From the IMG/VR virus record IMGVR_UViG_3300037258_000413, positions 1 to 60,616 of that record: a stretch of 60,616 nt of DNA, one strand, 5' to 3'. The notes beneath the pieces are model-generated. The model was given only the letters and a program-made list of their open reading frames with translations. It made no database searches and had not been told where the DNA came from. Below, piece by piece: positions 32,443 to 32,881 of the stretch. Position 1 is the first letter of the stretch; each line of letters starts with the position of its first letter. The position numbers were made by a program, and so were the translations under genes. This DNA is from a virus.

Positions 32443-32584
32443 TGGTGCTGCCGGGTGCGTAGGAGAGGGTTACTTCCTCTGCTAAAGGAGAGTTGCGGGT
32501 TCGAATCCCGTCGGTCTTTCGAGGCTGTAGCTTAATGGCAAAGCGCTTACGTTACCTTCACCGCTTTGATCTCCGGCGGCACCA
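32443..32584 (+). ncRNA. Y RNA-like unit 2 with tRNA-like domain
   Basis: About 142 nt. Outer stem 32443-32454/32573-32584 (12 bp, one G-U); loop GTGCGTA; inner stem GGAGAGGGT (32462-32470)/ACCTTCACC (32554-32562) with one mismatch and one G-U; TACTTC; 3' loop GCTTTGATCT. The apical domain mimics tRNA: T arm GCGGG-TTCGAAT-CCCGT (32495-32511), acceptor-like stem CGGTCT/AGGCTG closed by TTCG (32512-32527), and D arm GCTT/AAGC with GG in the loop (32530-32544). The order is that of a circularly permuted tRNA. Bacterial and phage Y RNAs next to Ro60 genes are known to carry tRNA-like domains. Confidence 0.85.
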
Positions 32585-32611
32585 CCACCGGTAAACAACT
32601 GAATACAGCAC

Positions 32612-32722
32612 CCTCCCGGTGCGCAGACGACGCCTACTTCACAGGTTCGAATCCCGTACTGGCCCTCGGGCCGGTTCCCCCGCTGGCATGGGGGTTGGCG
32701 TAGTCGCTTCGATCTCGGGAGG
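32612..32722 (+). ncRNA. Y RNA-like unit 3 with tRNA-like domain
   Basis: About 111 nt. Outer stem CCTCCCG (32612-32618)/CGGGAGG (32716-32722); loop GTGCGCA; inner stem GACGACGCC (32626-32634)/GGCGTAGTC (32697-32705) with one mismatch; TACTTC; 3' loop GCTTCGATCT. The tRNA-like part has T arm (32641-32657, loop TTCGAAT), a 7-bp acceptor-like stem ACTGGCC/GGCCGGT closed by CTCG (32658-32675), and a D-like arm CCCCC/GGGGG (32677-32694). The gap at 32585-32611 holds nothing recognised. Confidence 0.85.
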
Positions 32723-32732
32723 AACGGCATCG

Positions 32733-32881
32733 GGGGCGCCCGGTGCGCAGGTGACGGATACTTCCCGGAACCGAGGGTTGCGGGTTCGAGTCCCGCCCGG
32801 TCCGCCTCGTGCGGCCGGTAGCTCAATTGGCAGAGCATTGGTCTAACAGTTCCCGTCGCCGACTCAGATCTCGGGCGCCCC
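32733..32881 (+). ncRNA. Y RNA-like unit 4 with tRNA-like domain
   Basis: About 149 nt. Perfect 10-bp outer stem GGGGCGCCCG (32733-32742)/CGGGCGCCCC (32872-32881); loop GTGCGCA; inner stem GGTGACGGA (32750-32758)/CCCGTCGCC (32852-32860); TACTTC; 3' loop GACTCAGATCT. The tRNA mimic is the most complete: T arm GCGGG-TTCGAGT-CCCGC (32780-32796), acceptor-like stem closed by CTCGT (32797-32818), D arm GCTC/GAGC with loop AATTGGCA (32821-32836), and an anticodon-type stem ACCGA (32770-32774)/TTGGT (32838-32842) linking to the Y stem. The Ro60 gene starts 37 bases later. Confidence 0.87.

Follow-up and report, generated by a model that had tools for sequence, protein, structure and literature searches.

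A Ro60 cassette in a phage genome with candidate Y RNAs bearing permuted, acceptor-sealed tRNA-like domains

The DNA analysed here, referred to as the window, is the whole of virus record IMGVR_UViG_3300037258_000413 (positions 1-60,616; 60,616 bp), in which terminase, portal, Clp-type protease, and phage capsid genes are present. Between the terminase (25643-27013) and portal (34834-37197) genes, an interval that is a common home of accessory genes, lies a Ro60 gene preceded by four candidate Y RNA units, as follows:

32363-32435, + strand: Y RNA unit 1; Ro60-binding-type stem GGTGCGCA ... TTCGATCTC, with no T arm and no tRNA-like domain
32446-32581, + strand: Y RNA unit 2, closed type; Ro stem and tRNA-like domain with all four arms in permuted order
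32474-32490, + strand: unit 2 anticodon-type arm, TTCCT-CTGCTAA-AGGAG; 5 bp, 7-nt loop, U33, A37, A38, anticodon GCU
32495-32511, + strand: unit 2 T arm
32512-32527, + strand: unit 2 acceptor stem, 3' strand first, CGGTCT-TTCG-AGGCTG, closed by TTCG
32530-32544, + strand: unit 2 D arm, GCTT-AATGGCA-AAGC, preceded by U8-A9 (TA)
32612-32722, + strand: Y RNA unit 3; Ro stem and reduced tRNA-like domain
32641-32694, + strand: unit 3 T arm, acceptor stem, and D-like hairpin, in permuted order
32734-32880, + strand: Y RNA unit 4, open type
32770-32842, + strand: unit 4 tRNA-like domain; ACCGA, variable GGGTT, T arm, acceptor, TA, D arm, A26, TTGGT
32919-34502, + strand: Ro60 (TROVE domain) gene, 527 aa; PF05731, E 1.1e-16

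All four units share a Ro60-type stem, GGTGCG(C/T)A ... GATCTC, the flanks of which (GGTGCG..A and GATCTC) form a long stem that brings the 5' and 3' ends together, in the window as in relatives. Adjacency to a Ro60 (Rsr) gene is a YrlA-type trait, and here the TROVE gene at 32919-34502 directly adjoins the units, which are arrayed in the order short unit, closed, reduced, open. Other arrays, too, have short units resembling unit 1 at their distal end (e.g., L008 at -585 to -530 and L025 at -572 to -516). A megablast search against phage records returned no DNA-level relative, and no match to a sigma-70 promoter or a terminator was found around the cassette. Separately, a near-palindromic repeated motif, GTGATTCACGAATCGTGAATCATGAATCG, lies at 31900-31926, at the start of the open reading frame (31921-32352) preceding the cassette, and is possibly a regulatory site.

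The sequence-only reading had proposed that units 2, 3, and 4 each run T arm, closed acceptor stem, D arm, and this order is indeed seen in the sequence, with a permuted-domain scan of the 60.6 kb and covariance-model E-values (both below) in its favour; the individual domains differ more than that reading allowed. In unit 4, the T arm (32780-32796) is followed by an acceptor stem CCGG(U)CCGC-CTCGT-GCGGCCGG (32797-32818), in which one U is bulged and the loop is 5 nt long, and by a D arm (32821-32836) preceded by TA. The proposed stem connecting this domain to the Y stem is present as described, ACCGA at 32770-32774 pairing with TTGGT at 32838-32842; both domain ends thus make an anticodon stem, which continues into the Y stem. 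Unit 3 is reduced: its T arm (32641-32657) has 4/5 pairs, its acceptor stem ACTGGCC-CTCG-GGCCGGT (32658-32675) has 7 bp and a CTCG loop, and its D-like hairpin (32677-32694) is atypical, with a C-rich stem and no U8-A9; there is no anticodon stem or loop, the Y stem reaching directly to the tRNA-like domain. A D arm can therefore be granted to units 2 and 4 but not in typical form to unit 3, and closure by a tetraloop holds for units 2 (TTCG) and 3 (CTCG) but not for the 5-nt loop (CTCGT) of unit 4.

Unit 2 carries a feature that had gone unremarked, namely an intact anticodon arm at 32474-32490, which ends four bases before the T arm, directly 5' of the variable loop. Given this complete arm, unit 2 corresponds to a tRNA with four arms whose permutation point falls between positions 26 and 27; the domain is thus open where the D stem would join the anticodon stem, and not within the anticodon loop. 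The suggestion that the domain ends meet at the anticodon position consequently describes unit 4, and neither unit 2, with its own anticodon arm, nor unit 3, which lacks one. Likewise, of a tRNA "opened in the anticodon loop and sealed at the acceptor end", the sealing is borne out by covariation and by the layout of the Rfam YrlA family (RF02553), whereas the opening applies to unit 4 only and fails for unit 2. Single-sequence folding of unit 2 prefers a competing hairpin (-23.6 vs -16.0 kcal/mol for the permuted domain); we set this hairpin aside because its helix is almost devoid of covariation (6.28 vs 6.17 shuffled).

For comparison, Ro60 loci were gathered from viral contigs, bacterial genomes, and phage records, and the units of these relatives were anchored on T-arm and D-arm motifs only. 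Conservation inside those two arms is thus not independent evidence, but acceptor pairing, taken between the 7 nt that follow the T arm and the 7 nt that precede the D arm, lies outside the selection. The permuted acceptor stem has 6.66/7 pairs vs 3.78 +- 0.17 when partners are shuffled (n=74 units; 62 distinct 3' strands); here and below, units are related by descent and within genera, so that counts are not independent and p-values overstate independence. In the scan of the 60.6 kb for permuted domains, units 2-4 were the sole high scorers (12.0-12.7), the next hits reaching at most 8.1, every one on the opposite strand. A covariance model, R1, built from nine closed-type units of other loci with the window left out, recovers unit 2 with 61.7 bits (E 5.8e-13) and, more weakly, unit 4 (E 1.1e-7) and unit 3 (23.3 bits, E 6.7e-4). 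In those same nine units, the four-helix permuted structure has 97.9% of its cells paired vs 75.7% shuffled, with 14 pairs showing double changes; the anticodon helix is 100% paired, with 4/5 of its pairs doubly changed. Closing loops, which the sequence-only reading had offered as a useful natural series, proved uninformative: 61 different sequences occur among 79 related units, 0-12 nt beyond the 7 bp, with no signal.

Chance complementarity is a natural concern in a G+C-rich region, all the more so for unit 3, which is weak by itself (z -1.7). Shuffle controls, the model E-values, and the recurrence of permuted units upstream of Ro60 in 56 loci nonetheless make this explanation practically negligible, and chance is already refuted for units 2 and 4.

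Units 2 and 4 might otherwise be ordinary linear tRNA genes. ARAGORN reports tRNA-Ser(gct) at 32453-32520 and tRNA-Ile(gat) at 32727-32806, the Rfam tRNA model gives 25.9 bits over 32453-32519, and deposited phage records label corresponding elements as tRNA. That Rfam score is under the tRNA gathering threshold, however, and what would be the linear 5' acceptor strand belongs to the conserved Ro stem (GGTGCG); when the same 3' strand is paired with it, relatives retain about 3.3/7 pairs vs 6.7/7 in the permuted reading. The linear reading also leaves unit 2 without a D arm, and no canonical linear cloverleaf with a free 3' acceptor end was found. Linear tRNA genes are accordingly very improbable here, and the poor linear pairing marks the ARAGORN tRNA-Ser(GCU) and tRNA-Ile(GAU) calls as misreadings. 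Elsewhere, tRNA-Arg(cct), tRNA-Ser(gct), tRNA-Arg(tct), and tRNA-Pro(tgg) are annotated just upstream of Ro60 in phages GiJojo, Alone3, VanLee, and Frankenweenie. All four annotations (L064:2269-2343, L067:2274-2347, L069:2204-2275, and L071:2245-2335) overlap permuted units and probably represent misannotated Y RNAs; having been picked by a tRNA finder, they have linear acceptor stems that look above average.

The part order of the units is identical to that of permuted tRNA genes, a known class (PMC3978253), which raises the prospect of genes of the algal or archaeal kind, matured via a circular intermediate, or of remnants of two adjacent tRNA genes. Lending some substance to the latter, R1 also matches real tandem pairs of ordinary tRNA genes (e.g., G001:C26:133590-133673). 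Still, the closing loops of a few nucleotides leave almost no space for a discriminator base, CCA, or processing sites, no complete second tRNA flanks the units on either side, and the conserved Ro stem around each unit together with the adjoining Ro60 gene speaks against a permuted tRNA gene; we regard this origin for the units as highly unlikely.

In a phylum-wide R1 search, matches below about 60 bits mostly resemble tandem tRNA genes; the search is not a census, and L185-L189 are without Ro60 within the stretch covered. Since neighbouring tRNAs show the same part order, they are a source of false positives for permuted-tRNA finders, and such tandem pairs suggest how the permuted domain order could have arisen.

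A search of the window against Rfam at gathering thresholds gave no hits. Against RF02553, unit 4 scores 50.2 bits (full length, E 2.7e-10), unit 2 33.3 bits (tRNA-like core), and unit 3 19.5 bits, below the gathering score of 69, so the units are termed YrlA-like rather than certified members. That threshold was reached in 0/296 genomes of the host class and looks tuned to other lineages.

We therefore read the locus as a phage-borne Ro60 RNP cassette, comprising Ro60 and four Y RNAs, in which units 2-4 carry YrlA-type permuted, acceptor-sealed domains of open and closed sub-types and the tRNA-like end would act as an effector; we give this reading a probability of roughly 0.7. Its observed side consists of the sequence, the order of the parts, the covariation, the array syntax, and the linkage to Ro60. 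We infer that the RNAs would be transcribed, bind Ro60, and adopt a tRNA-like tertiary fold, with a partner and a function of the kinds considered below.

The closed sub-type is not peculiar to the window. A perfect hairpin of 5 bp and 7 nt sits in the right place for an anticodon arm in 27/79 units vs 4.3 expected (shuffle maximum 11 in 2000), and 51/79 units have an anticodon arm of at least 4 bp. These armed units show U33 in 47/51 and R37 in 49/51, whereas only 8/28 armless units have U33. Among armed units, G37 tracks G36 (p = 1.2e-6; p = 0.0013 over distinct loops), a position 36/37 rule that 46/47 distinct anticodon/37 pairs of real tRNAs obey in two host genomes. The canonical anticodon-loop grammar (5-bp stem, 7-nt loop, U33, R37, and G37 with G36) is thus found in unit 2 and its closed-type relatives. 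A second set of loci, found mostly via RF02553 and with some loci repeated, agrees on the anticodon arm (p = 0.003 at 5 bp); Ro60 lies alongside 19/20 loci found through RF02553.

Closed and open stems draw on the same 3' strand and are largely alternatives (p = 0.005): across 79 units, 3 have both, 22 closed only, 25 open only, and 29 neither. Position in the array differs accordingly in the 23 loci with at least two units, where distal units comprise 15 closed, 4 open, and 4 other, and Ro60-proximal units 11 open, 3 closed, and 9 other.

In five closed-type Y RNAs (L023:2485-2559, L043:2698-2772, L049:2691-2765, L061:2482-2557, and L040:2847-2922), the anticodon is that of Glu (CUC/UUC) and the D arm resembles that of tRNA-Glu, as though these RNAs were copies of tRNA-Glu. 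When isotypes are ranked by D arm and variable loop, the isotype of a unit's own anticodon averages 9.4/20 vs 11.5 shuffled (p = 0.0008), a signal that comes from the Glu lineage, one Gln case, and a handful of others. We also considered isoacceptor-specific mimicry as a general property; it is weakened by the mismatch between D arm and anticodon isotype in most units, including unit 2 (GCU), which is without a Ser-type D arm. As isotypes are mostly mismatched, what we claim is general tRNA grammar and not isoacceptor mimicry.

The anticodon hairpin is absent from the RF02553 model, and we found no description of an anticodon arm in Y RNAs in the accessible literature, although key Y RNA papers may already contain one. 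The permuted order itself was already known; what is new, to the extent that no description was found, is a widespread sub-type that keeps a complete anticodon arm.

As to mechanism, the tRNA-like end of studied Y RNAs gates Ro60 or docks a partner, as in RYPER of Deinococcus and YrlA of Salmonella (PMC8394870, PMC7790460). By analogy with these Y RNAs of distant bacteria, Ro60 would hold the Y stem of the phage units, and the tRNA-like end may serve as an effector module, either gating Ro60 or tethering a partner, which in Deinococcus is PNPase. With the acceptor 3' strand preceding the 5' strand and the end sealed by a loop, the domain would present a tRNA-like fold without a free acceptor end, and the sealed end implies that it would not be aminoacylated in the usual way. 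On this point the sequence-only reading fares well: covariation and the RF02553 layout both support permuted, acceptor-sealed, tRNA-like Y RNAs that are not usually chargeable. Its premise that bacterial Y RNAs mimic tRNA is likewise established for Salmonella YrlA (PMC8394870), permutation being a known YrlA feature, and the predicted contact of the units with T- and D-arm enzymes would agree with that literature. Closed-type units may, in addition, present their anticodon loop to enzymes that act on such loops.

Retention of the anticodon arm is suggestive of recognition by such enzymes and hence of a different role, in which the tRNA-like domains, chiefly those of the closed type, would be decoys or sensors for enzymes that attack anticodon loops, such as host anticodon nucleases, and would protect real tRNAs of the phage or host. 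Several observations are in keeping with this: (i) intact anticodon loops with tRNA grammar (U33, R37, and G37 with G36) are kept by covariation, (ii) the sealed acceptor end rules out a usual role in translation, (iii) in Streptomyces phage JustBecause, the gene immediately upstream of Ro60 (L072:1729-2481) encodes an RNA ligase, and (iv) a competitive-inhibitor role has been proposed for the YrlA domain of Salmonella (PMC7790460). On the other hand, Salmonella YrlA is uncut by a tRNA nuclease (PMC7790460), the Rfam consensus has no anticodon arm, and the anticodon fits the D-arm type only in the Glu lineage and a few others; moreover, several Ro60 loci sit among ordinary-looking chromosomal genes in actinobacteria, which implies a role that is not phage-specific. 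We consider this role rather unlikely as an alternative to the gating or tethering function of the cassette proposed above. A broader proposal, slightly less doubtful but still speculative, is that among the Y RNAs of actinobacteria and phages there is an undescribed class of complete tRNA mimics, four-armed, acceptor-sealed, and with the permutation point between positions 26 and 27, the anticodon loops of which would be selected for reading by anticodon-loop enzymes (modification enzymes or nucleases), with Ro60 RNPs serving as decoys or sensors of tRNA attack.

Ultimately, a covarying, grammatical anticodon arm on an RNA that is unchargeable in the usual way raises the question of what reads that arm. 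With the arm, it becomes concretely testable whether Ro60/Y RNA particles take part in tRNA surveillance or counter-defence, as opposed to being solely exonuclease tethers. In addition, the permuted units explain a set of probably wrong tRNA annotations beside Ro60 genes in phage records.

Among known systems, the units most resemble the YrlA (RF02553) consensus, in which the T arm is followed by a closed acceptor stem and a D arm, all enclosed by a Ro60-binding stem, with a Ro60 gene beside it; RF02553 also carries a 4-bp stem at the anticodon position, like unit 4. Unlike RF02553, the window has an array of several units, of which unit 2 has an anticodon stem-loop, unit 3 a degenerate D arm, and unit 1 no tRNA-like part. 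Salmonella YrlA (PDB 6CU1), according to a review (PMC8394870), mimics the D, T, and acceptor arms and is modified by DusA and TruB. The window also resembles phage Ro60/Y RNA loci, as phages of Streptomyces, Gordonia, and Arthrobacter likewise have Ro60 accompanied by these RNAs, and Y RNAs in mycobacteriophages are cited in PMC12282133. Several deposited phage records differ in that the Y RNA is apparently annotated as a tRNA. In the permuted tRNA genes of red algae and archaea, the 3' part precedes the 5' part and the transcripts are processed into linear, charged tRNAs; the window units share this order, but their acceptor end is sealed and embedded in a Y stem. Finally, tmRNA is a stable RNA with a tRNA-like end that has a free, alanine-charged acceptor end and no anticodon arm; both it and the window units possess a tRNA-like end, yet the units show the opposite arrangement, with the acceptor end sealed.
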